This document shows positions 32,036 to 64,000 of a stretch of 64,000 bases of DNA, in pieces. The position numbers and the translations under genes were made by a program. The first letter of the stretch is position 1. Each line of letters starts with the position of its first letter. This DNA comes from Anagrus nilaparvatae (lineage: Eukaryota > Arthropoda > Insecta > Hymenoptera > Mymaridae), in contig JAKSXM010000007.1 in assembly GCA_022575985.1 (NCBI GenBank), positions 9,798,501-9,862,500 of the forward strand, read 5' to 3'. Below the pieces are notes generated by a model. It did no database searches. It had not been told where the DNA came from and was given only the letters and a program-made list of their open reading frames with translations.

Positions 32036-34987
32036 TTAATTATTAAATTGATTCAAATTGCGCAAAGGCTCTAAAAGTCTGCTTTTTAAAGTTTTAGAAT
32101 TAGGTAAATTAAGAAGTTTAGAGTTTTTAGGGAGTAAATTGTATAGTTTTAAGGATACAATGTAAGGGCTTTTTTTGTACACAGATTTGTTTATAGTAGG
32201 TAACTTGATGTGATCTTTTCTGGTACTGAAAGTAGAATTTTTATATAAGTTGGTAAGATCATAGTAATAATGTGTTAAAGCATTGAGCTTGAAAAGCTGT
32301 TTTAAATCCAAGAATTGCGAAGGATCAATTTTCATAATTTGTATAATTTTTTTTTGAAAGCTCTGCAAAATTTTTAGTCTATTATCATATGCACATCCCC
32401 AGATGGAAATAGCATATGACACTACACCAAGAAACAAAGAATAATACATAATCTTTAGTACTTTTTTGTTAATGTGCCTTAACTTATAGAAAATAAATAG
32501 TAGATATTTAATTCGTTTTAGTAAGTTTTGTGTATGAGTGTCCCAACGCATATGTTGGTCAAAATATATACCCAAATACTTACAAGACGAGACTCTAGTT
32601 AACTTATAATCTGAGATTGTGATAGAATAATTATTTTTTGGTAAGCTATTTGCATAGTTACCAAAAGTGATAAACATGGACTTATCTAGGTTAAGTGTTA
32701 ATTTGTTGTACATAAACCATTTATTAATCAATCCAAGCGAATCCATCATTGCCGAATTAGCCAAGTTCCAATTTTTCTCAACGGTGAAGACTGCTGTATC
32801 ATCAGCATAAGAAAAGACTCTAGGGACAAGACTAAGTAAATCATTAATGTATATGAGAAACAAGTAAGGTCCTAAAATAGAACCTTGAGGTACTCCAACA
32901 TTAGTGATTACATAATCGCTTCTTGTATCCCCAAGTCTAACAGCATGCTGACGATTTAACAAGTAATTTTTAAAAAGGTTTAATGGCGTACCCCTGACTC
33001 CATATCTTTCCATTTTTTTTAACAATATATGATGGTCAACCGTATCGAAAGCTTTTGACAGGTCTAAGAACGTCCCAAGCACTGCTTGTTTCTCATTTAG
33101 TCCATTATAGATTAAATCAGTAACTTTATGCAGCGCCTGTTTAGTTCCTATACCAGCCAGAAAGCCAAATTGATTTTTAGAAATTATTTTATTTTTGTTA
33201 AAAAAGGAAGATAATCTAATAAAAATAACTTTTTCAAAGATCTTAGCAATATTGGATATAAGCGATATTGGCCTATAGTTTACCATGGAATTTTTATCAC
33301 CAGACTTAAATACAGGAATAATGTCTGCTTTTTTAAGATCAGTAGGCCAGATACCTCTGGCTATACAAGTATTAAAAATGAAAGTTAGTGGTTTTATTAT
33401 GAAAGGAGAGAGTATTTTAAGCATTTTTACATTAATGTTATCAACACCACCACATTTATCATTCAAATTTTTGATGAGATTTGATATTTCATTTGGATTT
33501 GTAGCTTTCAAAAATAATGAATTCAAGTTATTGTTGATATTAGATAAATTGATAATTGAGTCAGGGATTTTTTTAGCTAGTTTTAAACCAACAGTGTTGT
33601 AGTGATTATTGAAACTGGAAGCTATTTGGCTTTTATTAGTAAGAATATCATTATTAATATTAATTGATTTAATTTCAGTAGATTTGGAATTATTTTTACC
33701 AAGTTTTTTATTTATAAAATTCCATATTTTTTTTGAATTATTTAAATTTTTACTAGCATTGATAGAATCGTTTAGATTTTTAGCATTGATGATGACTTTT
33801 CTCAAGATTTTACAGAATTTGTTGAAATATTTTCTTAGATAGAGGCTTTTATTATTTTTTTTAACTAGATTATATAATTGGTCTTTATGATTGATGGAGA
33901 TTAACAAACCCTTAGTCATCCATTCTTTTCTTTTCTTATCAAATTTTTTATTAGAGGTCTTGTTATTTTTTTTGTTAGTAGCAGTTAGTATAGATTTATT
34001 AATGTAAGACTTGAGCTCAGTTAGAGCAATATTAGGATCATTAAAGTTTAGTATATTTTCCCAGTTTATTAATGAGGCTGCTGTAAAGAGTTTTTTATAA
34101 TTAATATAATTATACTCGTTAGAGTCATTGTTGGTAAAATATTTATTAATATCTACTATTGCAAAAATTGGATAGTGATCAGAAAATAGTTGATTATGTA
34201 CTATGGATTTGCAGGTAAAAGTAGTTTTTGCAAATATGTTATCAATACACGTGCCTTTTGAAATTTGATTATTGGGTCTAGTAACTGAATTAATTAAAGG
34301 TATGAACCCATTAGATAACATGTGACCAAGAAAAGTATTATTCTCATAATCATTATTAATAATATTCATATTAAAATCACCTATTATGAAATGATTAATT
34401 AAATTATTAGACTTGTTTAGATAGGTTTCAATTAATTCATTAAATTTTATTTTATTAATATCATGTGAACGATATGCAGCAGAGATATTCAATTCAAGAT
34501 CATTGATTTTAATTTTAACTTTTAATAATTTTAATACATCAATTGTTTCAATATTAACAGTGTGTTCTAATTTTTTTGATACGTAGACAACTACTCCATC
34601 ACATATATTAATTTTGCTGTCATTGTAATAATGTGAGTAATTATCTAAGGAAAAATAATTTATAAATTCTATTATTCTAGTTTCAGTACAGATAATTATA
34701 TGAGGTTTTTGATTTAGGGATGAGATAAAGGATTCTAGAAGTTCAAATTTTGAATTCAGACTTTGTACATTAAAATGAGCTATGATTAATTGAGTATTAA
34801 TAACAGGAGAAAAAAGTTCATTATTTAAATCAGCTAAATTGTGAGTAAGAACTTCAGGAAAAAAATTTAAATTTGAAATATCATTACTAGTATCAAAGTT
34901 AAAGCTCTCATCAATCATATTGAATAGAGTTGATTTTATTGCGTTTAAGTTTATTATATGTGTGACAGTTAATATTATCATGTGCAT
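32036..34987 (-). CDS. LINE ORF2: endonuclease and reverse transcriptase
   Basis: Protein of up to 983 residues that nicks target DNA and reverse-transcribes the element RNA in place (target-primed reverse transcription). The endonuclease is about residues 65-280, with motifs IAHFNVQSLNSKFELL, CTETRI, AAYRSHD, IIGDFNMN and SDHYPI. RT is about residues 500-770: ADIIPVFKSGDK, YRPISLISNIAKIFEKV, FLDLSKAFDTVDHHILL, VPQGSILGPYLFLIYINDLL and catalytic F-S-Y-A-D-D (YADD at 32798-32809, Tyr about residue 727). A Cys/Trp-containing C-terminal domain follows; the fragment at 54.3-54.8 kb is homologous to it. The chosen start is the first ATG, which overlaps the ORF1 end by 77 nt; translation may begin nearby. 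All key residues look intact. Confidence 0.92.
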   Translation of the reverse strand: MHMIILTVTHIINLNAIKSTLFNMIDESFNFDTSNDISNLNFFPEVLTHNLADLNNELFSPVINTQLIIAHFNVQSLNSKFELLESFISSLNQKPHIIICTETRIIEFINYFSLDNYSHYYNDSKINICDGVVVYVSKKLEHTVNIETIDVLKLLKVKIKINDLELNISAAYRSHDINKIKFNELIETYLNKSNNLINHFIIGDFNMNIINNDYENNTFLGHMLSNGFIPLINSVTRPNNQISKGTCIDNIFAKTTFTCKSIVHNQLFSDHYPIFAIVDINKYFTNNDSNEYNYINYKKLFTAASLINWENILNFNDPNIALTELKSYINKSILTATNKKNNKTSNKKFDKKRKEWMTKGLLISINHKDQLYNLVKKNNKSLYLRKYFNKFCKILRKVIINAKNLNDSINASKNLNNSKKIWNFINKKLGKNNSKSTEIKSININNDILTNKSQIASSFNNHYNTVGLKLAKKIPDSIINLSNINNNLNSLFLKATNPNEISNLIKNLNDKCGGVDNINVKMLKILSPFIIKPLTFIFNTCIARGIWPTDLKKADIIPVFKSGDKNSMVNYRPISLISNIAKIFEKVIFIRLSSFFNKNKIISKNQFGFLAGIGTKQALHKVTDLIYNGLNEKQAVLGTFLDLSKAFDTVDHHILLKKMERYGVRGTPLNLFKNYLLNRQHAVRLGDTRSDYVITNVGVPQGSILGPYLFLIYINDLLSLVPRVFSYADDTAVFTVEKNWNLANSAMMDSLGLINKWFMYNKLTLNLDKSMFITFGNYANSLPKNNYSITISDYKLTRVSSCKYLGIYFDQHMRWDTHTQNLLKRIKYLLFIFYKLRHINKKVLKIMYYSLFLGVVSYAISIWGCAYDNRLKILQSFQKKIIQIMKIDPSQFLDLKQLFKLNALTHYYYDLTNLYKNSTFSTRKDHIKLPTINKSVYKKSPYIVSLKLYNLLPKNSKLLNLPNSKTLKSRLLEPLRNLNQFNN

Positions 34988-49029: not shown

Positions 49030-50883
49030 TTAACCTACACGGCCAGGCTGCTTTGCTTGAAAATTCAAGCAAACAATTGAAAATTAAAGCAAATTGCTTG
49101 AATATTCAAGCAAATGCTTGGAATTTCAAGCAATCAATTAAATCAAATAAAAAAGACTGTAGGAAAGCTTACATTTTGTTGCCCTCCCTTTTTTTTAAGA
49201 GTTATTTGAAGAAAAAAAATTTTAATTAACTGCTGCTATTCCTAATTGTCTATTTCTTTCATTTTTTAATTATATAAATTTCTGGTTTGTTACTGCTTTT
49301 ATTTTATCCAAAGGTAATGGGGGGTAGGTAAATTAAGATGAAACAGAGTAATGTTTAAAAAAAATTCAATTATGATTTTTAGATTAAAACTAGATTTTCC
49401 AAGCATATATAGAATAAATAAATTGTCAAAAAACTATGTTAAAAAAAATAAAACTTTAAGTTAACAGTTACAGGAAAGTTAAATTATAATATTTCTTTTC
49501 ATTTTTAAACTTTATGACAATTAATTTTCTGAAATATATTTACCTGAGTCTTACTTGACATATTTCTGACAAAAAAACTTACCAGTGAGATTTAAACATT
49601 AGTTCAAGTTAGGTAATAAGTAAATGTAAATAGATTTAAGATGAAATTTTGGTAATTTTGAATGCTTATTTTTTAATAATTAAACTAATTAGAATTTTAA
49701 TTAGTATAAAAAAAATTAATTAGTTACAAATATATTATTTTTTTTAATTATTTAATTTTTATATATAATTATTTAAAAATTTAGTTTTCATCTACAAATC
49801 AATATTGAATTTTTTTTTAACATGACTCTGTTTCATCTTAATTTACCTACCCCTCATTCTCTCTGAATAACATAAAAGCAGTAACAAACCAGAAAGGACC
49901 CCGCACAAAAGGATAGGAAATGGAGTTTCGGTCAAATTGGCTGAATTTTTGATATGTTGTAGGTTTCATCATTCTGAACAAAAGTCTCACTGAGCACAAA
50001 GCTCAAAAGTCCCAACTTTGGCTGCTACGGAGCTTGAAAGCTCCAAAGCTCCATCATAACAAAGTTGCTTAAAAACCTATTTTCTTTTATTTTTAACGTA
50101 TATCATTATGTTTTTGAGGTCGCTGATTTCGAATCCGATGTCAGATTAACGAAATTGTCAATTGGCAGCTGTCAATTAGCTGTCAAGACTCTAAAATATC
50201 GTAGAAAACTTTAAAATTTAGCTGGGATACACGTTATTGAGGTCACTGACTTTGAATTCGATGTCAGATTTATTATATTGTCAATTGACAGATGTCAATT
50301 AGCTGCCAAAAATATAAAATATTGTAAATAACTATTTTATAGTCTTGACAGCTAATTATCAGCTGCCAATTGACAATTTCGTTAAACTGACATCGGATTC
50401 GAAATTAGCGACCTCAAAAACATAAAGATATGTTTTAAAAATAAAAGAAAAAAGGTTTTTAAGCAACTTTGTTATGATGGAGCTTTGGAGCTTTCAAGCT
50501 CCGTAGCAGCCAAAGTTGGGACTTTTGAGTTTTGCGCCCATTGAGAGTTTTGCTCAGAATGATGAAACCTACAACATATCAAAAATTCAGACAAATCGAC
50601 CGAAACTTCATTTCCTATCCTTTTGTGCGGGGTCCTTTATATAACTAAAAAATGAAAGAAATAGGCAATTAGGAATAACAGCAGGTAATTAAAATTTTTT
50701 TTCTTCAATAACCTCTTAAAAAAAGGTAGGGCAACAAAATTTAAGTTTTCCTACAGTATTTTTTATTTGATTTAATTGATTGCTTGAAATTCCAAGCATT
50801 TGCTTGAATATTCAAGCAATTTGCTTTAATTTTCAAGCGTTTGCTTGAATTTTCAAGCTAAGCAGCCTGGTCGTGTATATTAA
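49030..50883. mobile_element. Foldback element with GCTTGAA repeats, host of a nested element
   Basis: Outer termini TACACGGCCAGGCTGCTTTG (49035) and its inverse ending near 50878 (CAGCCTGGTCGTGTA) are flanked by TTAA at 49030-49033 and 50880-50883. Next come tandem palindromic GCTTGAATATTCAAGC units. Arms run at least 340 bp (to GGGGTAGGTAAATTAAGATG on the left, inverted at about 49835). The right arm is interrupted by the insertion at 49896-50635. No ORF. Confidence 0.8.
49896..50635. mobile_element. Spy-like element inserted between AAA and TTT
   Basis: Inverted ends GGACCCCGCACAAAAGGATA (49896) and its inverse ending GCGGGGTCC (50635). The arms match for about 350 bp and include CTTTGGAGCTTTC and TGACAATTTCGTTAA. 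It lies between AAA (49893-49895) and TTT (50636-50638). The other arm of the host element gives the empty site AAATTT at 49276-49281, so there is no target duplication and no base change. That is the hallmark of Spy transposons. Non-autonomous: no transposase. Confidence 0.7.
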
Positions 50884-51157
50884 CTTTACATGATCGTTGG
50901 ATTTTTCAAAAAATGCTAATTAATAGTTTTAAACAATTTTCGCTAAAATGGCTTTTAAGTATCGTAAAAAAGTAATCTTTTTTTAAATTACAGTTAATTG
51001 TAATTGTTTTTTCTATTTTGCATTGCTAAAACTTGTCTGATTTTCGCAAGTCAAGATTTTTTTTGGTTCCTCAATGAGGAACCATTTTTTTTATAATAAT
51101 AATAAAACAAAACTAAATTATCAATTAATTAATTATATAATATTTTTAAATTTATGC
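50884..51157. other. Intergenic, nothing recognised
   Basis: AT-rich spacer between two foldback elements. Confidence 0.4.
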
Positions 51158-51362
51158 ACCCACGTAAAAGGATTAAGCTTAATTTTGGTTAAGCTTAATG
51201 AATTAAGCTTACGGACTAACCTAAAAAAGCTTAATTTTAAAAATTAAGTCTTTTTAGGTTAGTACGTAAGCTTACTGAAGTAAGCTTAATCCAGTAAGCT
51301 TACTCCAATAAGCTTAATTCATTAAGCTTAACCAAAATTAAGCTTAATCCTTTTACGTGGGT
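51158..51362. mobile_element. 205-bp foldback element built of AAGCTTA units
   Basis: Ends ACCCACGTAAAAGGATTAAG and its inverse (TTACGTGGGT) bracket a dense series of TAAGCTTA/TTAAGCTT units, with ten AAGCTT sites in about 205 bp. The whole folds on itself around TTAATTTTAAAAATTAAG. Confidence 0.8.
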
Positions 51363-51797
51363 TTGTATTTCTTTCTATTGATATATAAATTAACTAGTTT
51401 TCTTCTATTTGAAAATCTCCAGTCAATGTACGGTTTCATAGGTTTTCTTTACAGGATAATAATTCTCCTACTGTTTTACTGTGGGTTTTTTGACTTATAT
51501 ATACCAATTCCCAAGTGAATATTTAGAGTGGTTTTCAAAATAAGATGACTGTTTTATTTTTTTTTAAGTATTTGCAACAGATCTTAAGATCTTGGGAAAC
51601 AGGTATTAGGTATTTGAACAAAGTAAATATTTTTTTGAAACTAAGAATTAATTTTTAGATTTTAAATGTTATAATAACAAATTTTGATAACAAATTTTGA
51701 ATTCCACAAAATTACTAATTAAATTAAGAAAAGTTCATTAAAATAACATATAAACAAAATATTAAACAAAAAAGTATAATTCATTTCTCGAAAAAAA
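51363..51797. other. 3' flank of the 52-kb cuticle gene
   Basis: AT-rich; no repeat or ORF supported. Confidence 0.4.
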
Positions 51798-52399
51798 TTA
51801 ATAATAACGATGAGCTAATGGTGCTGCAGATTGCAGAGATATGAAACCTGAACGAATTGGTGAAGCGATCTTGGGGTATTTTGGATATGCAAACTGTGTT
51901 GGAGCTACTGGAGCAGGTGCAACTGCAACTGGAGCGGGTGCTACGGCGACTGGTTCTCTGTGTACAACAGCAATAAATCCATGCAAGTCATCAGCGGTGT
52001 ATTCAACGAATCTTCTGGTACCATCTGGTTCATAGAGTGAGTAACTTCCACGAACAACGTCTCCATTACGACTTTCTTCGTGGTGTTTAAAGTCACCAGT
52101 TAAAGCATCTTGGACATCGTAACCAAAACTGTATTGAGGATATGCATTATAATTCAAATCTACGGTATTGAATGCTAAATCCGGAATGGCTGGTGAATAA
52201 TGGATGACACTAGCATTGGCTATGGCAGCAAAGGCAGCAAAGGCAGCAATAAAGAGGAGCTAGAAATAGATTTTTTTTTTAATTATCTTTATGCACATCA
52301 ATTTATATTTGCTATAAATAGTGTAAAGTACTAATAAATATTAATATTAATTACTAATAAATGAAATAAGTAGTGAAAAATTTTTACCTTGAAGACCAT
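51798..52399 (-). CDS. RR-2 cuticular protein, 157 aa, two exons
   Basis: Secreted chitin-binding cuticle protein. Exon 1 is 52388-52399 (M-V-F-K, donor GTAAAA). Exon 2 is 51798-52259 (acceptor TTCTAG), 128-bp phase-0 intron. Using the spliced start rather than the internal Met at 52157 adds the signal peptide ([16 protein letters not shown], about residues 1-20). RR-2 is about residues 47-107: [50 protein letters not shown]. The tail has two [14 protein letters not shown] units, then [13 protein letters not shown] and AAPLAHRYY. It has I in HGFIAVV where other members have N-A. Upstream block and TATA are shared with the 29-kb gene. Confidence 0.95.
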
Positions 52400-52482
52400 T
52401 TTTGAATATTTTTTCAATCAATTGGATTGTACTTTTACCAAGTTTGCGTAAGAAATGATCTCTATACGAGAACACCACGGTT

Positions 52483-52490
52483 CTTTTATA
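52483..52490 (-). promoter_or_regulatory. TATA box of the 52-kb cuticle gene
   Basis: TATAAAAG on the minus strand, 84 bp upstream of the ATG; identical to the 29-kb gene's TATA box. Confidence 0.7.
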
Positions 52491-52550
52491 CTTGCGTTCC
52501 CTTAAAAAAATAATGTGTGAAAATAAAAAAAAGTAATAATTTATAATACA

Positions 52551-52609
52551 GGATATAACTTCCACCTTGCATTATGATTTTTATTTTCCTTAATATAACT
52601 GACCCTTTC
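52551..52609 (-). promoter_or_regulatory. Upstream block shared by three cuticle genes
   Basis: On the minus strand GAAAGGGTCAG (52600-52609) then CAAGGTGGAAGTTATATCC (52551-52570), same order and similar spacing as at 28887-28962 and 54985-55033. Confidence 0.6.
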
Positions 52610-53032
52610 TATATTTATTTTTAAATACAAATGATTAGTACAGGTTCAGTTAATTTAACAGCTAATTAAATTTAACATATAATACAATTCATTTTGATTT
52701 AAATTTTTTTTAATACGTTTTTCTAAATAAATTTTTTGTGAAATGCCAATTAAATTAAAATTTTTCGATGTTGCAATTTCGAATTTAAAAAATAATATAA
52801 GAGATTTGTTAAGGGGTTTTTTAGCCAGTCAGTAACAATTAAATCTATTTATTTAAACATATTTATTTCTTATAACTACTGATCTTTTTCTCAAACCAAA
52901 AAAATTATTTAGCTAGGCATATAAAAAAAAATATATAAACTTGCTTAAAAATATTTGCCAATTTGAATTCTTGTTTTTTCAACTTACCCTCTTACGCTAT
53001 CACATTAATGTGATCTTAAAATTTGTATCAAA
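52610..53032. other. Intergenic, nothing recognised
   Basis: AT-rich sequence ending at the CAAA duplicated by the following element. Confidence 0.4.
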
Positions 53033-53981
53033 GGGGGCGTTCAATAATTACGCAACGCTGTATGGGGATCGACCGTTTTGTTGTAACCGTTACTGGGCGT
53101 TGCGTTAGGGTAGATTCACGATAAAAAAATGTTGCGCAACGAAAATCATTTTTAAATACAGTAAATTAAATTTTTTTCAATTAAAAAAAAAATGCAAAGC
53201 CGAAACCAATAGTTTATCCTTTGTTTAATAAGTAGCTTTTCTTCCTAGCGGGCTGAAAACACTTTTTTCGTCCCGCAACGAGATCGAAAAAAACGCTTTT
53301 TCACCCAGTGAGAAAGAAAAATTTCGTTTTGTCCATGGGAATAAAAAAAAATACCCCAGATCGCAATTTACCATCCTCGGCTTTACCTCGGATGCTAATT
53401 AACATGCGATCTGGGTCATTCTTTTTTTTTGCTCCCTTGGTTAAAAATGTACTAATTTTTTCCATCTCGTTGTGGGTCGAAAAAAGTGTTTTCGGCCCGC
53501 TAGGAAGAAAAATTAATAAATCGTAGAGAGAAGCTAGGGATAAAAATAAAAAATTTGAATAATTAGAAAAGAATATTAGTCATATTATAAGTGAAATATG
53601 AAGTATTTGCAGTCCAAGGCATCTAATATTTGTCGTTTGTTAAAGCTGGGAAAATTTATTTACTTTTAAGATAATATAATATTAAATTAAAATATATCAT
53701 AATTTATAAAAATAGTTATTGGGTTTTTATATTGACTTCCCATAAATAAAATAATACATATTTTTTAAGAGAACTAAAAACATAGTTTTGCAAACAATAA
53801 TAACATCAATATTTAATTTTATTATTTTTTGTGAAAAAAGGCCCTTTACTAAAAAAAAAATAGTTGCGCAACGTTTTAGTAGGGTGGGTGGACTGAACTC
53901 TAAGCGTTGCACAGCGTTGCAGGGGGGTGAACTGATACGAAATTTCCCAAAATTAGCGTTGCGTAATTATTGAACGCCCCC
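53033..53981. mobile_element. 949-bp non-autonomous DNA transposon with 26-bp TIRs
   Basis: Starts GGGGGCGTTCAATAATTACG and ends with its exact inverse (CGTAATTATTGAACGCCCCC); the match extends to at least 26 bp. Both sides carry CAAA (53029-53032 and 53982-53985), a likely 4-bp target duplication. Inside, a second inverted pair (53231-53516: TTCTTCCTAGCGGGCTGAAA and its mirror GGCCCGCTAGGAAGAA) contains a copy of the dispersed CCTCGGATGCTAATT repeat. No transposase; the superfamily is not assigned. Confidence 0.8.
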
Positions 53982-54342
53982 CAAAATGTAAAAAATTGTG
54001 CAAATTTAACTGGTTAAGATTTTTTCTCATATTTTCAAATTTTTTTTTAAAAGTTACGTAGAAAAAAATATATATTAAAAAATATAATAAAAATGTATAG
54101 ATATATTAATCATAAAATGTGTTAAATAAAATAATAAATAAAATATTTTTTTTTTACAGTGCATTAGAAACAATTTTTTTTTGAAAAGATAAGGCCGACC
54201 TTAACTTCAATCACTTGAAGTAAAAATTTTTTCTTGCCGATATAATAAAAGTTGTTTAAGATAATTTTAATCGACAATGTCGAAGTTTATTGTTTCTAAG
54301 AGTATGGTGAAAGTAGGTGAAATTGGTCCTTAATTTTAATTT
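53982..54342. other. Intergenic, nothing recognised
   Basis: AT-rich; no feature supported. Confidence 0.4.
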
Positions 54343-54844
54343 TTTTAACTAACCTTCGACTACAGCCTAAAATGGGACTCACATATTAAGAATATATTCA
54401 AAAGGCTGCGATATTTCCTATTTTTATTATACAAATTGAACCACATAGACTCAAAAATTAAGAATTAATATTAAATATGTGAGAGGATTGGTTTTTTTTG
54501 ATTAAGAATTAATAATTATGTATTATGCTCTATGTCAGAGTATCTGGACATACGGTATAACAGCTTGGGGTGGTGCCTATAGTAAAGAAACCAACCCTTT
54601 GCAAAATTTTTTAAACAGAATACTAAAAAGAATCCCAGAACTTAAAGCAGAAGTACTTGATGTCAAAAATACTTTTAAATTGCATTCACTTCTACGCCAC
54701 TATGTCAAGTTCTCCCAAACATACAACAAATCAACTAGTAAAACAAGAAATAAAAGCCTAAAATTTCCCGGTATTAATAAAGAAATATTTAAAAAAAGCT
54801 CTAAATCAGATTATTTAGAAAATATTATTGTTCAAGGTGAATAA
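54343..54844 (+). pseudogene. LINE RT C-terminal fragment, interrupted
   Basis: Plus-strand remnant homologous to the C-terminal part of the 32-35 kb LINE ORF2. Part one encodes FDYSLKWDSHIKNIFKRL and YKLNHIDSK (matching its RWDTHTQNLLKRI and YKLRHINKK). Then come a stop and about 50 bp of extra sequence with a duplicated TTAAGAATTAATA. Part two (54518-54844) continues with MYYALCQSIWTYGITAWGGA and a C-terminal tail. It is in the same family but diverged, and dead. Confidence 0.8.
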
Positions 54845-54984
54845 AGCGATAAATATTTGTATTATAATTTGTTTTATAAATGTGTGTAAAACCATTAAAA
54901 ATATTTTTTTATTATATAAATGCAATTCACTATAAATAAACGGTAACGTAGAACAGACAATTGCATTGAAAAGAAAAATTATTT

Positions 54985-55033
54985 GAAAGGGTCGCAAGTT
55001 TAAAAGAAAAAGTCATGGTACAAGGTGGAGGTT
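54985..55033 (+). promoter_or_regulatory. Upstream block shared by three cuticle genes
   Basis: GAAAGGGTCGC at 54985-54995 and AGTCATGGTACAAGGTGGAGG at 55011-55031, as at 28887-28962 but with a 4-bp deletion in the second motif. Confidence 0.6.
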
Positions 55034-55094
55034 GCATTTTTATTAAGAAATCATATCTTTCTTTTTCTTTTTTCTTTATGGGTCTGCAAGTCAG

Positions 55095-55102
55095 TATATA
55101 AG
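55095..55102 (+). promoter_or_regulatory. TATA box of the 55-kb cuticle gene
   Basis: TATATAAG, 90 bp upstream of the ATG at 55185. The stretch to the ATG is closely similar to 29042-29132 (both contain AAGAACTGAA and ATACTTCG.TTAAGTA). Confidence 0.65.
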
Positions 55103-55282
55103 AACTGAAATTTTTTGGTAAAAATATCAATCGCTAAAAATACTTCGATTAAGTACAAGCGAGCTAATCGTTGAATTCATAAAAATGGGTTTTAGGTAAA
55201 TATTTTTGTGTGTCTTACATTGGTTAATTTTTATTTTAAATAAAATTGTTATTTCTTTTTGAATTTTCTTTTCGTAAATAAA

Positions 55283-55286
55283 AGAC
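55283..55286. repeat. Target site duplication AGAC (left)
   Basis: AGAC immediately before the 5' LTR; the matching copy is at 63251-63254. Confidence 0.8.
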
Positions 55287-56001
55287 TGTAACGTCAGGTC
55301 AAAACGACCCTAAATAAAAGGGTTATTATTTAATGTAGCCAAGGTCAACAGTTGCTTCATATCAAACATGACTTGGTAAAATATACCAAGCGTTATTAAC
55401 GTAACACCTGAGCAAACATACATAAATATTTCGAGCACTTATCAGCTCAGCGGGCGTTGGCCCACGTAATCGAGACCTTGACGTAGAACTTCCCCCATAA
55501 TTAAAAATAGCAATAGATTTGGTGACTAGACAAAACGCTCTTATCACTATATATAGAGGTAAAATCCGAGGGGTCGCTCTCGCTTTTTAGCCGTGAATCC
55601 GTTTAGCTTCACGTTTCTGGTTGTGCCGTCCCGGTCTTCAGCTAGACATGGCTCTCTTTTATCTGCCAGCAATTACGCGATTAGTTCCGTTACAAATTCA
55701 GTGCCAGACGCTCGAAGTATACTTACCAATCCAAGTGATCTCAGTAGTTGGACTTTAAAATAATTAGGACTTCCAGTTGGACTTTAATTAGTAATAGTAA
55801 GCAAGTTGTAAGTTATTATAAGACATTTTATAACTATAAGTAAATAATAGAAATAAAAGTAGTTATTAATTAATTATCTTAAATTGATTTGAACCTAATC
55901 CTTTCCCGCCGTTAGTGTCACGTAGACGCAAGGCTAAAAGGTATCCATTTGCATTAGCAATATTCTTTACAGGTTACAATAAAGTAAGTTTAGACGTAAC
56001 A
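55287..56001 (+). repeat. 5' LTR, 715 bp
   Basis: Begins TGTAACGTCAGG and ends AGACGTAACA, so the ends form a 9-bp imperfect inverted repeat (TGTAACGTC with GACGTAACA) with TG..CA borders. It contains a TATATATAG box at 55548-55556, a likely promoter, and AATAAA at 55852-55857, a likely poly(A) signal. A 61-codon minus-strand open frame in both LTRs is considered chance. Confidence 0.97.
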
Positions 56002-56005
56002 AGTT

Positions 56006-56023
56006 TGGGGTCTCGTCCGCGAT
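56006..56023 (+). promoter_or_regulatory. Primer-binding site
   Basis: TGGGGTCTCGTCCGCGAT, starting 4 nt after the LTR. It begins TGG, as complementary to a tRNA CCA end, and differs at 2 of 18 positions from the known tRNA-Pro primer site sequence as I recall it, so tRNA-Pro is the likely primer. Confidence 0.7.
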
Positions 56024-56649
56024 TAATTTTGTGGTTCAAATCAAAGTTTTTAAATTTTTCAAGTTGTTTTTTATTTAATGATTTAACTACCTTTATTATT
56101 ATTATTTACAGATTGGTTTACAAATAATAAAGTAAAAAAAAAAAAGTAGTAAAAAATTAAATTACAGTAAATTTATTTGTCATTTTTTTTTTTAAGAAGG
56201 TAAAAATCCAAAATTTAAAAATTTTTTTTTTTTATAATTTATATTAAATGATGCTTGTATAATTAAAATATAGAATAAATTTAATTATACGTGTCATTTT
56301 TGTTAAGAGATAATTCATACAGTAATTTAATTTAAATATTATTCAAAAAGATTAATATATAAAAATTTTTTTTTTATCAGTGATAAAATATTTTTATTAA
56401 TAGAAATTGATTGAGTAAACCTTAATACTTATCTAATTCAAAGTCAGTATTAACAAATTTAGTAATTTTGTTTAAAAAAAAAAAAATAAAATTTTTTTGT
56501 TTTTTAAATTTGATTTTTCAGTAAAAGTGTAATTTATTAAATAATTTTTTTGTTAGTATCAGTCATTTTATCTGAAATATATTAAATAAATTTTTTTTTC
56601 TTCTCATATTTAAAATCTTTTTTTTGTTTAAAAAAAAAAAATTTACAAA
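56024..56649 (+). other. 5' leader of the LTR element
   Basis: About 620 bp of noncoding, T- and A-run-rich leader between primer site and gag. A packaging signal is expected here but none can be named. Confidence 0.6.
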
Positions 56650-58668
56650 ATGGCAAACACACAAATTGCATATTTAGAAAAACAACTGCTGGCTAAAGAG
56701 CCTTCAGTAACTAAATCGTTTGAAATTATAAAAGAGCACGCGGAAGGTAAATTCGAAATACCAAGCGATTCGGATATAAAAGTAGTTTTAGAAGCGTATC
56801 AAAATTATTACGAACAAAACACGAAAGTGTTAAAAGAGGAACTTGACGAGGAGGCGCGTGATCTTATTAAGGATCTTGCACATTTTATTCCAATACCAAA
56901 AATGAATGTATTATTTAAAGATAAATTTTTCGTCGAATTGTTTACAAAATTAAAAGATGCAAAAATAGAGCCATCAGTTTTAGCGGATATAATTATAGCA
57001 AAATCAGAAGAAGTTACTCAATATTCAATTTATACAGATTTTAGAGTAACTGAAATTCTTAAAAACTTTATAAAAGTAGATTCAGGTAAATTGTGCTCTA
57101 CAACTTATGATTACATTACATATATTTATGAAAAATTGCAATCTTTTAGTGGTAATTCGATCCCAAATGAATTCAAAAAGTTGTATAATAAATTAAAATA
57201 TTCCGTAGAAAATAAAGAACTACTGGAAAAATCTATGCAAGATCCTGAAATTTGTTTAGTGTTAAATGAGTTAAATCAAAAAGGTTTAGGTCCGGAGCAT
57301 ATAATAACGGCCTTGAGTTTGCATGAAACAGTTAAGATGGCGGAAACATTAAATATTGAAAAAAGCATTAGAAAAGATTATGAAACTCCTTTAACTTCAG
57401 GAAATACTAGAACTATAAGCTTTAATCTAAATGAGGAAATAATTAAGAATAGTTTGCATGGCAACCAAAATACTCCTCAAAATTATAACAAGTACGATAT
57501 TGAAAGCGAAAGTCTTAATTATGGTCAGAGTACCCAAAATCAAACACAGCATAGAGTCAGTGAAAATTGGCCTTCAACAATGTACCACACCCTTCCTAAC
57601 GAGAGCATTCCTTCTCCGTTTTTAAAAGTTCAAGTGGGGGGAAGTCAACAAAATTCAAAGCCCTCCACGTTTCCTCATTCTCAACAGCAAAATTTTCTAA
57701 ACCCATTGCATAATAGAAATACAGGTATAGAGCCCGACCCGAGTTCAATTTTTAAAAGAAATTATGAGTTGACAAAAATTAGGGCTTTGTCAATTAAAGA
57801 CGCCCTTGATTATATCCCAAAGTTTGATGGAAACAGAAATGAGCTGTCAAATTTCTTACGAGGGTGTAATTTAGCTCGTAAATCCATCCCCCCAGAGTTT
57901 GAGTCTCAACTTACAAAATTAATAGCAACTAGGATATCGGGGGCGGCAGCCGAGGCTATGGGAGAGAGGGTTTTCAGTAACATGCAGGAGGTTACAAGTT
58001 TTTTCGAGTTCATGTTTGGGAATTTGAAAACAGTTCATGAGCTATATGGCGAACTAGCACAAATTAGGCAGAAAGCAAGCGAAGATACCGTTTTATATTC
58101 GAATAGAGTCAAAATTTTAGGTCGGAATATTTTAAAAGCTGCAATAAATGACACAAATGTAAATTTTAAAGAAACCGAGATAGGATTAGATCGCGTTTTG
58201 CTGAAATATTTTCTACGAGGTATAAAACCAGAAATAAGAGTACGGTTAATACCTTGTGCAAACTTTGATGATACAATCAAAGAGGCTGTTGTAGTAGAGA
58301 AAGAAGTGGGAGTTTATGCGCAAGGCAACTCTTACGCAGGTGCGGCAGCAAATATCAGGTTAGTCACGAATAGCAATAATGACGGGGAGAAATGTGATAT
58401 TTGCGGTGGTGATAATTTAACCACGTCATGTGAAATTTTTAAGAAAGCATTAAATGATTATAATAAAAAAGCAATTGAAGTTAACGCGGTAAATAATAAT
58501 CAAAATCTTCAAACAAGAGTCAGTAGTGATTCTGAGGAAAGGCCAATTTGCTTTTATTGTCGAAAGAGGGGTCATTTAATTCGTGAATGCAGGAAACGTA
58601 TGTTTGATGAGCAAAGACGAAAAGATCGGAAATTGAAATCCGAAACTCAAAATTTAATAAATATTTAA
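56650..58668 (+). CDS. gag: Gag polyprotein, 672 aa, intact
   Basis: Structural protein that should assemble particles and bind the element RNA. The N-terminal about 300 residues are helical and charged (MANTQIAYLEKQLLAKEP, repeated Lys/Glu), followed by a Gln/Asn/Ser/Pro-rich linker (about 280-370). Residues about 375-560 match the Ty3/Gypsy capsid region: IPKFDGNRNELSNFLRGCNL, RISGAAAEAMGERVFSN, LYGELAQIRQKASEDT and YFLRGIKPEIRVRL. A C-x2-C-x8-C stretch (CDICGGDNLTTSC) precedes a true CCHC knuckle at about 634-647 (C-F-Y-C-R-K-R-G-H-L-I-R-E-C). It ends with a basic tail and stop; no pol frame overlaps or follows. The frame is undisturbed, fitting recent activity. Confidence 0.93.
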   Translation: MANTQIAYLEKQLLAKEPSVTKSFEIIKEHAEGKFEIPSDSDIKVVLEAYQNYYEQNTKVLKEELDEEARDLIKDLAHFIPIPKMNVLFKDKFFVELFTKLKDAKIEPSVLADIIIAKSEEVTQYSIYTDFRVTEILKNFIKVDSGKLCSTTYDYITYIYEKLQSFSGNSIPNEFKKLYNKLKYSVENKELLEKSMQDPEICLVLNELNQKGLGPEHIITALSLHETVKMAETLNIEKSIRKDYETPLTSGNTRTISFNLNEEIIKNSLHGNQNTPQNYNKYDIESESLNYGQSTQNQTQHRVSENWPSTMYHTLPNESIPSPFLKVQVGGSQQNSKPSTFPHSQQQNFLNPLHNRNTGIEPDPSSIFKRNYELTKIRALSIKDALDYIPKFDGNRNELSNFLRGCNLARKSIPPEFESQLTKLIATRISGAAAEAMGERVFSNMQEVTSFFEFMFGNLKTVHELYGELAQIRQKASEDTVLYSNRVKILGRNILKAAINDTNVNFKETEIGLDRVLLKYFLRGIKPEIRVRLIPCANFDDTIKEAVVVEKEVGVYAQGNSYAGAAANIRLVTNSNNDGEKCDICGGDNLTTSCEIFKKALNDYNKKAIEVNAVNNNQNLQTRVSSDSEERPICFYCRKRGHLIRECRKRMFDEQRRKDRKLKSETQNLINI

Positions 58669-58767
58669 AGAGTAAATTTAGGTATGGAATTAGTAAATAG
58701 TAATCAGAGTTAAGTAGAGAAGTTAGTAAATTTATTTAGTGGTTATTGAAAGTTATTCGTTTTACAG

Positions 58768-59295
58768 TAAAGGTCAGGAAACTGACTGGCCGTCCTAAAA
58801 TCAAGACTTAGCTCTTGAGTCGTTTTTCTTAAAGGTCAGGAAACTGGCTGGTCGTTTTAATTTTAAGATAAAGCTTATAATTCGTTTTACAGTAAAGGTC
58901 AGGAAACTGACTGGTCGTCCTAAAATCAAAACTTAGCTTTTGAGTCGTTTTACAGTAAAGGTCAGGAAACTGACTGGTAGTCCTAAAATCAAGACTTAGC
59001 TCTTGAGTCGTTTTTCTTAAAGGTCAGGAAACTGGCTGGTCTTTTTAATTTTAAGAGAAAGTTTATAAATCGTTTTACAGTAAAGGTCAGGAAACTGACT
59101 GGTCGTCCTAAAATCAAAACTTAGCTTTTGAGTCGTTTTACAGTAAAGGTCAGGAAACTGACTGGTAGTCCTAAAATCAAGACTTAGCTCTTGAGTCGTT
59201 TTCCTTAAAGGTCAGGAAACTGGCTGGTCGTTTTAATTTTAAGAGAGTTTATGAATTGTTTTTTAGTAAAGGTCAGAAAACTGGCTGGTCGTTTT
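58768..59295 (+). repeat. Nine-copy GAAA-tetraloop hairpin array
   Basis: GTCAG-GAAA-CTGAC or GTCAG-GAAA-CTGGC begins at 58773, 58835, 58898, 58961, 59023, 59086, 59149, 59211 and (as GTCAG-AAAA-CTGGC) 59272, a period of 62-63 nt. Five-base stems close a GNRA loop; the A-to-G change keeps a G-U pair. A second stem, TCAAGA..TCTTGA or TCAAAA..TTTTGA around loop CTTAGC, lies between them. The variants alternate in a three-monomer higher-order unit of about 188 bp. Confidence 0.9.
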
Positions 59296-59878
59296 AGTTT
59301 GTAAATAAAGCTCTTGATCGATTTATTATGTTTTAAATTGAATAAGTACTTATATTAGAAATAAAATTATTGATGAAGTTGTTAATCATTTGGTCATTAT
59401 GGTTATTGTTATATTGCTATTAAATCTGGTAAAGGACATGAATTATTTGTTTTTAGGATTAAGGAAAACTAATATTTGATGTTTAGCATTTTTCAGAAAA
59501 AAATTTTATGTCAGAAAATAATTACAAAATTAATAATGCTGTTAAGGTTATAATCTTTATTCGTAAGGCAGGTTATTACAATATATTAATCAGGTTCAGT
59601 AGTGGGAGTTTAATGAAGGATGCATGTTTTCCGTGACATCGGCCAATTTCCAAATCTTGTGAAAAATAGAGTTATCAGCTACTGGCATGAAGAGTACCAT
59701 CCTAAAAGAAATAAAATATGAATTAAAGGAGTTCTGAAATAAATATATTGATGCATTCGCTTTATCATAAAAGTTGGTTAAAGTAGCTAACAAGGAAGGC
59801 TAATCATTTTAGAAATTTAAGGTCAAGAAATGATTTCATGAGTTCAAAAAAAAAATATATTTTTTGTTTAAGAAAATT

Positions 59879-59902
59879 TCAGCATATCAGAGGATATGCT
59901 GA
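59879..59902 (+). repeat. Bracket hairpin, left copy
   Basis: TCAGCATATC-AGAG-GATATGCTGA: a 10-bp perfect stem with a 4-nt loop. An identical copy at 60898-60921 brackets the middle hairpin arrays. Confidence 0.9.
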
Positions 59903-59964
59903 GATTTTGGTAAAACATTTTTGTAAAAAAAAAAAAAAAAAAAAATTACATGTTCTTAAAAATG

Positions 59965-60101
59965 CAGAGCACATAAGAGATGGCTCTGTGATTTTAAGAA
60001 ATAAAGTTCAAAAAGATACCGAGCACATAAGAGGGCTCGGAGATTTTTTCTAAAAAATAAAATGTTCGAAAAAATGCCGAGCACATAAGAGAAGGCTCGG
60101 C
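59965..60101 (+). repeat. Three covarying GAGC/GCTC hairpins
   Basis: Stems CAGAGC/GCTCTG (59965-59988), CCGAGC/GCTCGG (60019-60040) and GCCGAGC/GCTCGGC (60076-60101) share the loop start ACATAAGAG. The stem bases change together on both sides, keeping pairing. Confidence 0.88.
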
Positions 60102-60146
60102 GATTTTCCTAAAATGTATATGTTCAAAAAAAAAAAAAAAAAAAAA

Positions 60147-60867
60147 TGCCGAGCACAGCACGAATATACGGCGTTTTTGATAAAATTTTTTTTTCTAAGT
60201 TTAAAAAAATTATTTTTTAACTAAGAGATTCGCCGTATACAACGAATATGCGGCGTATTTTAAAAAAAAATTTTTCTAAGTTAAGCTAAAAAATAATGTT
60301 ATTTTTTCTAAGTTAAGTTAAAAAAATAATGTTATTTTTCTAAGTTCAATTTTTTTTTACTAAGAGATTCGCCGTATACAACGAATATACGGCGTATTTT
60401 TTATAAAAATTTTTCTAAGTTAAGTAAAAAAAAAAAAAATAATGTTATTTTTCTAAGTTCAAAAAAATTATTTTTTTAACTAAGAGATTCGACGTATACA
60501 ACGAATATACGGCGTATTTTTTATAAAAATTTTTCTAAGTTAAGTAAAAAAATAATGTTATTTTTCTAAGTTCAAAAAAAAAAAAAAAAAAAAATTATTT
60601 TTTAACTAAGGGATTCGCCGTATACAACGAATATACGGCGTATTTTTGAAAAAAAAATTTTTTTAAGTTAAGTTAAAAAATAATGTTATTTTTCTAAGTT
60701 CGAAAAATTATTTTTTAACTAAGAGATTCGCCGTATACAACGGATATACGGCGTTTTCGATAAAAATTTTATTTTTCTAAGTTAAGTTAAAAAATAATGT
60801 TATTTTTCTAAGTTCAAAAAATTATTTTTAACTAAGAAATTCGCCGTATGCACACGAATATACGGCG
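60147..60867 (+). repeat. Six CGCCGTATA hairpins plus one hybrid
   Basis: CGCCGTATA-CAACGAA-TATACGGCG type 9-bp stems at 60231-60255, 60370-60394, 60490-60514, 60616-60640, 60729-60753 and 60842-60867, spaced about 113-139 nt, each preceded by CTAAG.GATT. The first has a G-U compatible change and the third one mismatch (GACG). At 60147-60173 a hybrid joins the GCCGAGC left arm to an ATATACGGC right arm. Confidence 0.9.
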
Positions 60868-60897
60868 TGTTTGATAAAAATTTTTTTTTAGTAAATG

Positions 60898-60921
60898 TCA
60901 GCATATCAGAGGATATGCTGA
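60898..60921 (+). repeat. Bracket hairpin, right copy
   Basis: Exact repeat of the 24-nt hairpin at 59879-59902, about 1 kb away in the same orientation. Confidence 0.9.
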
Positions 60922-60990
60922 GAATTTGAAAAATTAATTTTAAGTTTCGTTTGAAAATTTTCTAAGTTCAAAAAATATTTTTTTTAGAAA

Positions 60991-61228
60991 GCAGATCGCA
61001 TATTGATCGATCTGCGCGCGATAAAAATAATTATTTGTTTCAAAAGATTTTTTTTTAGAGAGCAGATCGCATATTGATCGATCTGCGAGCGGTAAAAATA
61101 ATTATTTTTTCAAAAGATTTTTTTAGAGAGCAGATCGCATATTGATCGATCTGCGCGCGGTAAAAATAATTAATTTTTTTTCGTTGTCAAAAGATTCTTA
61201 GAGAACAGATCGTATATGGAACGATCTG
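60991..61228 (+). repeat. Four GCAGATCG hairpins
   Basis: GCAGATCG-CATATTGAT-CGATCTGC at 60991-61015, 61062-61086 and 61130-61154, and a variant CAGATCGT/ACGATCTG at 61206-61228. Period 68-76 nt. Each is followed by GCGCGCG, GAGCGG or similar, making GC-rich islands in AT-rich DNA. Confidence 0.9.
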
Positions 61229-62088
61229 CGCGCGTGATAAAAGTATTTTTCAAAGATATAATAATTTTTTTTTTGGTTTTGATTATTCTACGATTCAAAT
61301 TTTTGACAAAGTCTTTAGTCAGAGTTACTCAAATTTTTTTTATAAATACTAGAACTTTGACAAAAATTTGGATAATTTAAAAGAAAATAGGTTTCAGTGC
61401 GAGTCAAGATACCTAAGACGGCATGGTACTATGAAGAAAAGTAACCTGTGTGTCCTCCACCGTGCCATAAGAAAAATCGTATAAGCCAAAGACGGCAAAG
61501 AAATTTGATAATCAAAAAGACATTAGAGGAAAAGAGACAGAAGATATAGAAGCAGACGTTAAAAATTTTAAAATATTATGATGTGCAGTAATATAAGAGA
61601 AAAATGTAAAGATTTAAGTCATAAATTTTAAATTAAAGGAATTGTTGTAATAAGTTTAGTTAGAAAAGTTAATGGGAAATCAAAATTTTTTTTTTGTAAA
61701 CATTAACCTAGAAATATAAACAGTACTTACTTCGCCGCTAGCTGCCTCCATAATTATTGTCAATTTTCAGAAATGGTAAAATAAAGAGATAAATTCTGTT
61801 AGCTTTTTCAATACACATTAATTTTAATAACAAATATTATTAAACACCTTGTATTTAACTCCAAAAGATATCACAATTTATGTTACACCACATGGGAGTA
61901 CATGTATACAATAAAAAAAAATATGGAGCGCTAAATTTAAATTTAAATTTTAAGATATTTGTTTATTTTGTTCTTATTTGTTTTAGGCTAAATGTAAATT
62001 TTTGTTTGTCAATTTTCGTTTATACATGTTATTTTATAAAAAATTTTGTTACAAATTAGTGCTAAATTACTTAAAGATCATTTTTAGA

Positions 62089-62118
62089 GAGCAGATTCCA
62101 CGTTGAGGAAATCTGCTC
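62089..62118 (+). repeat. Isolated hairpin related to the GCAGATCG family
   Basis: GAGCAGATT/AATCTGCTC, a 9-bp stem around a 12-nt loop. It keeps the AGAGAGCAGAT left flank of the family at 60991-61228 but has a different stem bottom on both sides. Confidence 0.85.
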
Positions 62119-62152
62119 CAGGATAAAATAATTAATTTTAATAAAATTTTTT

Positions 62153-62318
62153 GTGAAAGCACCTAGTGCTTTAGTTTTAAGGAGTGGAGAGAAAGATAGT
62201 TAACGTAAAATTAGGATAATTTTACTTTTTATTAATTGTGAAAGCACCTAGTGCTTTAGTTTTAAGGAGTGGAGAGAAGGATAGTTAACGTAAAATTAGG
62301 AAAATTTTACTTTTTAGA
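62153..62318 (+). repeat. Two 85-bp units with AAAGCAC/GTGCTTT hairpins
   Basis: AAAGCAC-CTA-GTGCTTT at 62156-62172 and 62241-62257, each followed by AGTTTTAAGGAGTGGAGAGA and then a GTAAAATT/AATTTTAC inverted pair. The two units are nearly identical. Confidence 0.88.
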
Positions 62319-62524
62319 TGAAAAATATTCAGTTAACCCCTAGAACTGAGCCAATTCAAATTTTTTTTCATCTAAATTAAATTTAAAGTGCTTGGAAGTC
62401 AAATTAATTTAACGTTTAGATTTTATTAGTAAATTTGAATTCGTATTAACTTTGATAAATTATACTTCGGATCTTGCCTACTATAAAATCTAAACAAAAA
62501 TTTGTTTTACAAATTTTTTCCATT

Positions 62525-62535
62525 AAGGAGGGAAG
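62525..62535 (+). promoter_or_regulatory. Polypurine tract
   Basis: AAGGAGGGAAG directly before the 3' LTR, the expected plus-strand primer. Confidence 0.9.
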
Positions 62536-63250
62536 TGTAACGTCAGGTCAAAACGACCCTAAATAAAAGGGTTATTATTTAATGTAGCCAAGGTCAACAG
62601 TTGCTTCATATCAAACATGACTTGGTAAAATATACCAAGCGTTATTAACGTAACACCTGAGCAAACATACATAAATATTTCGAGCACTTATCAGCTCAGC
62701 GGGCGTTGGCCCACGTAATCGAGACCTTGACGTAGAACTTCCCCCATAATTAAAAATAGCAATAGATTTGGTGACTAGACAAAACGCTCTTATCACTATA
62801 TATAGAGGTAAAATCCGAGGGGTCGCTCTCGCTTTTTAGCCGTGAATCCGTTTAGCTTCACGTTTCTGGTTGTGCCGTCCCGGTCTTCAGCTAGACATGG
62901 CTCTCTTTTATCTGCCAGCAATTACGCGATTAGTTCCGTTACAAATTCAGTGCCAGACGCTCGAAGTATACTTACCAATCCAAGTGATCTCAGTAGTTGG
63001 ACTTTAAAATAATTAGGACTTCCAGTTGGACTTTAATTAGTAATAGTAAGCAAGTTGTAAGTTATTATAAGACATTTTATAACTATAAGTAAATAATAGA
63101 AATAAAAGTAGTTATTAATTAATTATCTTAAATTGATTTGAACCTAATCCTTTCCCGCCGTTAGTGTCACGTAGACGCAAGGCTAAAAGGTATCCATTCG
63201 CATTAGCAATATTCTTTACAGGTTACAATAAAGTAAGTTTAGACGTAACA
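62536..63250 (+). repeat. 3' LTR, 715 bp
   Basis: Identical to the 5' LTR except C at 63199 (T at 55950). Confidence 0.97.
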
Positions 63251-63254
63251 AGAC
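63251..63254. repeat. Target site duplication AGAC (right)
   Basis: AGAC directly after the 3' LTR, followed by the rest of the host intron and its TTTTTCAG acceptor. Confidence 0.8.
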
Positions 63255-64000
63255 TAAGATTTTAAACTATTTTTCAGCTTCTTCTTATTGCAGCCTTCGT
63301 CGCTTTAGTCAACTCTAGTTATATCCCATCTGCTCCAGCTTTATCTGCTGCTGTAGCTGTAAATCCAGAATACAAAGCTAATCCCTCGTACAGCTTCGTC
63401 TATGATGTTGAAGATTCTTTAACCGGTGATGTAAAGCATCAAGAAGAAACGCGTGATGGAGACGTTGTACGTGGAAGTTACTCGCTCTATGAATCAGATG
63501 GTACTCGACGAGTTGTTGAATACACTGCTGATGGTATTAATGGATTTAATGCTGTTATACATAAGGAACCAGCTTCAGTTACTGTAGCTAGAGCTGCCCC
63601 AGCTCCAGTTGCAGTAGCTCCTGCTCCTGTTGCAGTGGCACCAGCACCAGTTGCAAGGATTGCTACCCCCATTACACATTCTTATCCTGTTCAATATCCT
63701 ACCAGATCTGTACATGCAGCTGCTCCAGTAGCTGTTGCTCCTGGTCCAGTAGCCCCTGCACCAGTCGCAGTCGCTCGAGCGCCAATAAACTTTGCCGCCA
63801 GATCTGTACATCCTGCTCCATTACCAGTTGCACCAGCCCCAGTCCCAGTGGCTCAAGTACCAAATAAATTTGCCGCAAGAACCGTTCATTCAAGCTCAGT
63901 ACCTATTCAGTTTGCGGCGAAGTCTATACAGCCTGCTCCATTAGCAGTCGCTCCAGCTCCAGTTGCTTATGAAACAAGATTCGCAACTCCAATTTTACGA

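Follow-up and report, generated by a model that had tools for sequence, protein, structure and literature searches.

To our knowledge, long terminal repeat (LTR) retrotransposons that encode gag alone are known mainly from plants. HeT-A, a telomeric element of Drosophila, is also gag-only, has a long 3' noncoding region and relies on the reverse transcriptase (RT) of other elements; it is a non-LTR element, with no LTRs or integrase route. Here we analyse a stretch of 64,000 nucleotides (the window; G000:C62:9798501-9862500) from the 488.7 Mb genome of the hymenopteran Anagrus nilaparvatae, in which positions 55287-63250 hold an element that, like HeT-A, is gag-only with a long 3' noncoding region and, unlike HeT-A, has LTRs. 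We consider it probable that this element represents a persistent, non-autonomous gag-only lineage of an insect Ty3/gypsy (Metaviridae) family, mobilized in trans and with an inherited hairpin module. A single genome carries gag-only, gagless, gag-pro-pol and giant envelope (env)-bearing members of this one family, the giant being a 27-kb relative referred to as the C171 element. A literature search for a gag-only LTR retrotransposon in an insect found no report.

Among plant TR-GAG elements, transposition of the Copia-type AT5TE33540 has been shown in ddm1 Arabidopsis (PMC8704663). Elements of this kind, as that report describes them, have LTRs with a single gag open reading frame (ORF) and a related autonomous element in the genome (PMC8704663). 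Like them, the window element has a single gag ORF between its LTRs and no pol, the same structure recurs in multiple copies (window, L011, L012 and L024/L030; L numbers denote stretches taken from the genome), and related autonomous elements are found in the same genome. By analogy, the window element appears to work like a TR-GAG element. It differs from the plant Copia-type example in that it is a Ty3/gypsy element, has an insect host, is rich in hairpins towards its 3' end and carries a mosaic gag.

Retand, a plant Ty3/gypsy group, has a long region from pol to the 3' LTR with antisense ORFs, tandem arrays in about half and some non-autonomous members (PMC11963269), and the C171 element resembles it, in plan only, in that tandem arrays and antisense coding sequence follow pol ahead of the 3' LTR. 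The Retand antisense proteins are mostly of the TRP28 type, and neither 'intron' nor 'hairpin' occurs in the main text of that report (PMC11963269); in the C171 element, by contrast, the antisense unit encodes a JmjC protein with predicted introns, there are env-like genes and the host is an insect. Membership of Retand was rejected because antisense TRP28 was absent from the two C171 antisense exons scanned, one of which matched JmjC and the other nothing. A single search, limited to open-licence papers, turned up no LTR element with an antisense JmjC gene that bears introns.

The Burro elements of planarians are gypsy-like and reach 30 kb and more. They have tandem repeats and additional domains, and their env region matches the fusion glycoproteins of mononegaviruses from arthropods and fish; a mononegavirus-like env on a Ty3-type element is thus already known (PMC6431247). 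In Burro, as described, the extra domains and env are part of a sense polyprotein, accompanied by some accessory ORFs (PMC6431247), whereas the added length here comes from hairpin arrays, an antisense gene and a free-standing env ORF. The C171 element is like Burro in its size and its mononegavirus-like env. The Jingchuvirales belong to the Monjiviricetes, and the 27-kb relative, with its PF24664 Monjiviricetes_fusion match, has a Jingchuvirales-type glycoprotein on an LTR element. In this it is like Anakin, a chuvirus glycoprotein captured by a BEL/Pao element in mosquitoes (PMC10084718), and unlike it in that the carrier is Ty3/gypsy; Gypsy fragments lie beside such glycoproteins in several insect orders, with no clear Gypsy capture in that account (PMC10084718).

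Results

The LTR element in the window is young; it lacks pol and codes for an intact Gag of 672 aa. Its LTRs are 715 bp each and have one mismatch (55950 T / 63199 C), the flanks read ...AAAAGAC/TG on the left and CA/AGACTAAG on the right (slashes mark the element's ends), giving the target-site duplication (TSD) AGAC, AG TTTGGGGTCTCGTCCGCGATTA directly 3' of the 5' LTR is primer-site-like, and AAGGAGGGAAG lies directly 5' of the 3' LTR. These marks of an LTR retrotransposon, namely paired TG...CA LTRs, a short TSD, a primer-binding site and a polypurine tract, had been described in an earlier note on this DNA and are all confirmed in the sequence, as is the 672-codon gag without pol: the gag ORF (56650-58668) is the sole long ORF of the element, and 58669-62530 holds 33 stop-to-stop ORFs of 40 aa or more, the longest reaching 88 aa. 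The encoded Gag has a weak CCHC match (PF00098 at 633-649, 17.6 bits, under the cut-off of 20.8), and its best match in the Protein Data Bank (PDB), Ty3-I Gag-Pol, is also weak (E 0.0012); the structure predicted from a five-sequence alignment had a mean pLDDT of 40 and a pTM of 0.19. Protein searches returned two proteins with gag and five with the alignment (best 7995 candidates scored each), none with the window-type C end, P0008 having the pol-bearing type, and a viral_contigs scan with the gag alignment gave 271 pattern matches and no relatives.

A search of the genome with the LTR, in which 40 of 241 candidates were scored, listed 51 matches and gave eight loci. Twenty stretches and then five more were taken from the genome, and the window modules were mapped on them. 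Interiors were chosen mainly where two LTR matches lay at most about 30 kb apart or the LTR was of the shorter type; L031-L033 were picked through hairpin matches and are thus not countable as evidence of constant hairpin retention. Left out of the counts were LTR loci with unreadable interiors (L003/L028, L005, L008, L025), LTR matches without fetched sequence, L017 (a duplicate of L016), L022/L023 (whose left flank is that of L026, treated as allelic or duplicate), L001/L002/L004/L006/L007 (parts of other entries) and, for the hairpin count, L019 (a continuation of L018).

The hunt for further copies that the earlier note had called for yielded three more gag-only insertions among the copies read, the class comprising the window (TSD AGAC), L011 (ATTT), L012 (TCAT) and L024/L030 (TCAA). 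The junction between gag stop and repeats is common to all four, their flanks differ, and gag is open in the window and in L011 (670 aa). L009 has gag, protease and matches to the start of pol that reach about residue 227 and do not share a frame, followed by the 63-bp array; in L010, L013 and L018/L019 pol ends as in L009 and gag is shortened; in L014 and L016 gag is reduced to 279 nt; and L015 is a gagless insertion with identical LTRs (719/719) and TSD ATTT. The pol-bearing class consists of L020/L021 (gag interrupted by an insert, envA and envB unmatched, env2 partial), L026/L029/L027 and L031/L033. Neither, then, do all the other copies carry pol, nor are hairpins absent elsewhere. Four-base TSDs were seen by eye in 11 insertions (window, L009, L011, L012, L014, L015, L016, L018/L019, L020/L021, L026/L027 and L024/L030), and the flanks of L031/L033 fit a TSD AAAA once the boundary is moved by 3 bases; in L010 the 5' end is rearranged and the TSD ambiguous, and that of L013 is unreadable. 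LTR mismatches number 0/719 in L015, 0/684 in L014, 1/715 in the window, 1/648 in L024/L030, 3 each in L011, L012, L016 and L020/L021, 4 in L009, 5 in L026/L027 and 10 in L018/L019. Several copies share contigs.

The giant C171 element (L026, L029 and L027; C171:142308-169286) spans 26,979 bp, with TSD CAAC and LTRs of the shorter type (646 bp). It encodes gag, RVP, RT, RNase H and integrase (rve 32.1 bits, just under the cut-off of 32.6), together with an ORF that matches PF24664 in two pieces (E 1.7e-70 and 2.9e-104) and a second ORF of 476 codons, membrane-like in that reading of the sequence places hydrophobic stretches close to both its ends, for which there was no Pfam match above cut-off. 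Against the PDB, the RT of L026 matched 7q5b, named Ty3-G (E 1.3e-82), and 4ol8, named RT/RNaseH (E 9.6e-83), the only one of the listed chains that beats Ty3-G and presumably itself the Ty3 enzyme. The C342 element (L033 and L031) is compact, about 11.6 kb, with an LTR pair 99.74% identical over 769 bp, and runs from the gag ORF through protease, RT, RNase H, integrase and ten hairpins to 3' modules as in the window family. The order RT-RNaseH-IN (integrase) was found in L026 and L031 and the Ty3-type RT match in L026, that is, in the relatives and not in the window. The LTR ends (TGTAACG...GACGTAACA in C342) are common to the window and the pol-bearing relatives, and the primer site is identical in C342 and L020 (the C171 site is 1 base off); the earlier note had asked for relatives with these LTR ends and this primer site plus pol. 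Such relatives would act as partners of the gag-only copies; together with the other gag-only copies, they support the reading of the window element as gag-only with candidate partners, by which it would be mobilized in trans.

A second, near-identical giant copy lies at C1:9228836 (L022/L023), the left flank CTCGCAAC being common to both giants. It holds a nested non-LTR element (L022:4540-7359, minus) with a 939-codon ORF matching RVT_1 and, under the cut-off, Exo_endo_phos_2. Protein tandem repeats of variable number lie between protease and RT in L009, L010, L013, L018, L020, L026 and L033, of the QTSKPNLAQTSTPKLA type in most and of the SRTSAEPQENI type in L033.

Comparison of the copies shows that the window gag is a mosaic, in which the N and C parts are old and the capsid part is near identical to that of L026. 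Over its first 900 nt the window gag is 97-100% identical to L024 and 69-79% to L011, L012, L026, L009 and L022 (89-91% in the first 150 nt); over nt ~1050-1650 it is 97-100% identical to these five and 78-94% to L024; and identity over its 3' end is 98-100% with L011 and L012, 92-100% with L024 and 48-75% with L026, L009 and L022. Synonymous divergence (dS) between the window and L026 is 1.09 for aa 1-310, 0.05 for aa 311-545 and 1.29 for aa 546-672 (1.39 for the C part on another alignment). For the same three parts it is 1.27, 0.32 and 1.38 between the window and L033, the near-identity of the capsid part thus applying to L026 (0.05) and not to L033 (0.32), and 0.35, 0.35 and 0.57 between L026 and L033. 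Across the diverged gag parts omega is 0.13-0.28. The mosaic suggests co-packaging and trans-mobilization: a diverged gag-only lineage would have recombined with L026-type pol-bearing elements, most simply by template switching, with two RNAs per particle. The features of the window element are as follows.

55283..55286, no strand: target-site duplication AGAC, left copy
55287..56001, plus: 5' LTR, TG...CA, 715 bp, with TATATA at 55548 and AATAAA at 55313, 55852 and 55978
56002..56649, plus: A+T-rich leader, 15% G+C, the first 158 nt retained even by gagless L015
56004..56023, plus: primer-binding-like site TTTGGGGTCTCGTCCGCGAT, the same in pol-bearing L033 and L020, 1 base different in L026
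56650..58668, plus: gag ORF, 672 aa, with the N part at aa 1-310 (type common with L024)
within 56650..58668, plus: capsid-like part of gag, aa 311-545, near identical to L026 and L011
within 56650..58668, plus: C part of gag with CCHC, aa 546-672, a type that among the copies read only gag-only ones have
58757..59292, plus: 63-bp tandem array, 8.6 units, ordinary folding energy
59596..59701, minus: candidate antisense last exon after acceptor TTTCTTTTAG, 35-aa frame (predicted splicing, sequence reading)
59841..61255, plus: hairpin region
59879 and 60898, plus: TCAGCATATC-type hairpins
about 59960-60105, plus: GCCGAGC-type hairpins, 7-bp stems
60231-60867, plus: CGCCGTATA-type hairpins, units of 113 to 139 bp
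60991-61228, plus: GCAGATCG-type hairpins
61731..61751, minus: candidate antisense first exon, frame MEAASGE, ATGGAGGCAGCTAGCGGCGAA/GTAAGT (predicted splicing)
62089..62118, plus: isolated hairpin, diverged relative of the GCAGATCG type
62146..62315, plus: 85-bp direct repeat, 2 copies
62525..62535, plus: polypurine tract AAGGAGGGAAG
62536..63250, plus: 3' LTR, 1 mismatch to the 5' LTR
63251..63254, no strand: target-site duplication AGAC, right copy

The earlier note had seen about 3.9 kb of structured repeats in place of pol. The hairpin-rich part of the element, however, is 59841-61255 only, where perfect hairpins (stem of 8 or more, loop of 3-14, 3 or more G/C in the stem) number 10, whereas 30 first-order shuffles averaged 0.17; 12 occur across the window's first 54 kb. 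The element folds most strongly at about 59801-60960, where z falls as low as -6.5 and is close to zero in some scanned intervals; isolated low values occur elsewhere in it (-3.7 in gag at 57761, -3.6 at 62401), and a cuticle gene outside the element reaches -5.4. The 63-bp array folds like its shuffles (z +0.05 to -1.8), which rules out special folding there. In 50000-64000 none of 11 Rfam matches (E up to 1) reached the gathering score.

Hairpins were surveyed in the 3' noncoding part of 15 insertions, with 15 shuffles per stretch. Perfect hairpins numbered 11 in the window, 17 in L011, 12 in L012, 5 in L024+L030, 11 in L009, 8 in L010, 7 in L013, 10 in L014, 8 in L015, 9 in L016, 5 in L018 (part), 2 in L021, 74 in L029+L027, 10 in L031 and 4 in L032, while the shuffles averaged between 0 and 0.6, with maxima between 0 and 4; the L024 stretch alone had 1, equal to its shuffle maximum, and coding stretches of the surveyed elements (n=4) had 0-2. 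Hairpins are thus present in 15 of 15 insertions examined, the unbiased count being 12 of 12 because the window had been chosen for its hairpins and L031 and L032 by hairpin search. In all three pol-bearing copies read they lie downstream of pol; thus the hairpins do not replace it, and on this point the earlier note is not supported in its wording. The same holds for its proposal that the 3' half works as RNA: presence in the insertions examined does no more than suggest an RNA function of the hairpin region, compensatory changes are few and an antisense intron is a rival explanation. GCAGATCG-type arrays, mostly 77-80% identical, were also seen at further loci of the genome (e.g. C62:62638789-62639375, C35:26690-27224 and C281:168075-168331), which are perhaps further C342-type members.

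An antisense unit adjoins the hairpins. In the C171 element an antisense exon with a donor (L027:7836-7816, ATGAACCGAATTACCAAACAA/GTAAGT) is followed, beyond a predicted first intron of about 9.95 kb that is nearly all 113-bp hairpin unit, by further antisense exons in L029 (5974-4412) with JmjC (PF02373, E 2.7e-14); the JmjC exon also has C2H2 matches slightly under cut-offs (best 26.6 bits vs 27), and a protein search with it returned four proteins, all from short ENA contigs. L032 is a second insertion with antisense exons 2-4 (87-95% aa identity) and adjoining hairpins; its exon 4 matches as two overlapping pieces in different frames, so this copy is probably broken, and omega is 0.21 for exon 3 and 0.23 for the later piece of exon 4. 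The candidate first exon of the window differs from that of C171, with a donor alike. GTAAGT is present in 10 of the 10 insertions with this segment and the start codon in nine (lost in L019); the L021 version has substitutions and a frame-keeping 3-nt indel. The candidate last exon is 86% identical in L009, L010, L011, L012 and L024, with its frame kept (by reading), and has a 1-nt deletion in L018. At L029:3842-3160 (minus) there is a second small antisense gene-like unit, whose frames start MARELYLNHHPGAH and whose last exon ends ...PPPPEDDGPVNEMDQVE (by reading); GCAGATCG-type hairpins lie in its predicted intron, and its last exon recurs in L021 near 3870-3780.

The window element sits in intron 1 of the cuticle-protein gene, whose downstream exon matches Chitin_bind_4 (E 1.1e-16) and whose splice acceptor lies about 27 bp past the 3' LTR (63278; from sequence reading). 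The presumed first cuticle exon (ATGGGTTTTAG, 55186-55197) is apparently 1 base short compared with a neighbour at about 52390 (minus); the gene may thus be off frame, or the exon misread. A non-LTR-like RT ORF of 983 codons (RVT_1, E 4.9e-34) occupies 32036-34987 (minus) of the window.

Discussion

If the window element is, as we think probable, a persistent gag-only lineage, it would be transcribed from its own LTR and would make its own Gag, and its RNA would be packaged along with that of pol-bearing relatives. Using the primer site and LTR ends that both have in common, the RT and integrase of these relatives would copy the element and insert it. Co-packaged copies would recombine, and the window copy may have gained its L026-type capsid segment in this way. 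The family would have inherited the hairpin region as a 3' module that follows pol in complete elements; in the gag-only lineage pol would have been lost from the stretch before it, or never have been there. This module most likely works in cis, through RNA fold or packaging or through a surrounding antisense transcription unit, because copies without gag and pol still retain it.

Several observations count against this interpretation. The gag is frameshifted in L012 and L024, two of the four gag-only copies; the C171 primer site differs by 1 base from that of the window; and the C342 LTR, its ends apart, has just about 80 bp in common with the window LTR. A pol-bearing lineage outside the copies read could be the source of the old gag parts. 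The presence of hairpins could reflect common descent and nearness to the 3' LTR, not need. Among distinct sequences of the CGCCGTATA type 194 pair cells are unchanged, 17 broken, 5 G-U and 0 compensatory (both strands were scanned, strand-symmetric rows being counted twice), and compensatory two-sided cells number 3 and 2 in the two smaller hairpin families and 0 in the two larger; changes are mostly one-sided, many of them pair-breaking, which argues against RNA function. It could also be argued that DNA-level gene conversion between integrated copies produced the gag mosaic, which would then be uninformative on co-packaging. Several copies do lie on the same contigs; the gag blocks, however, occur in varied combination with LTR types and with the order of the 3' modules, a pattern expected of template switching though not decisive, and we hold conversion to be unlikely. 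A one-off internal deletion of a pol-bearing element would fit the LTR ends, leader and capsid segment that the window has in common with pol-bearing copies, but it is very improbable given that the junction is common to three other gag-only insertions with differing flanks and that the N and C parts of gag stand at dS 1.1-1.4 from L026 and L033. An assembly join, for which a stretch rich in repeats and homopolymers might give occasion, is hardly credible when insertions on different contigs, L011 and L012 among them, show the same module order.

The hairpins may also have accounts of their own. It is quite possible, if somewhat short of an even chance, that they are selfish or neutral tandem repeats without a role, spreading by slippage and template switching, with palindromes arising from replication errors. 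The range of 2 to 74 perfect hairpins per element, the varying module order (hpC-post-hpB in L013 and L030, hpB-hpC-post in the window) and the dearth of compensatory cells in the larger families agree with this; harder to square with it are the four hairpin sequence types side by side, some kept in every insertion examined, and the near lack of hairpins in the four coding stretches of the same elements. More tentatively, the hairpin region may be mainly the intron of an antisense unit with a promoter in the 3' region of the family and a short first exon, a unit that encodes a JmjC protein in the 27-kb relative and keeps only its first and last exons in gag-only copies. The C171 donor exon and JmjC exons that bracket hairpin units, the L032 exons with hairpins adjoining and low omega, and the recurrent donor and start codon of the window's first exon speak for such an intron, but the two candidate exons of the window give no long joined frame, the compact C342 element has hairpins and no JmjC match in the stretch read, and the last exon carries the deletion in L018.

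It is conceivable, though improbable, that the gag-donor lineage and the giant envelope-bearing relatives form one recombining population that shares the 3' module, with hairpin arrays filling the introns of an antisense gene, and that the JmjC protein which this gene makes in the giant could counter silencing of the family. If this were true, helper, shell donor and parasite would share packaging and protection from chromatin. The family bears on the question of whether gag-only elements live off their helpers as parasites or supply Gag and, since gag-only, gagless, gag-pro-pol and giant env-bearing members occur in one genome with a record of recombination, the two roles can be tested against each other.

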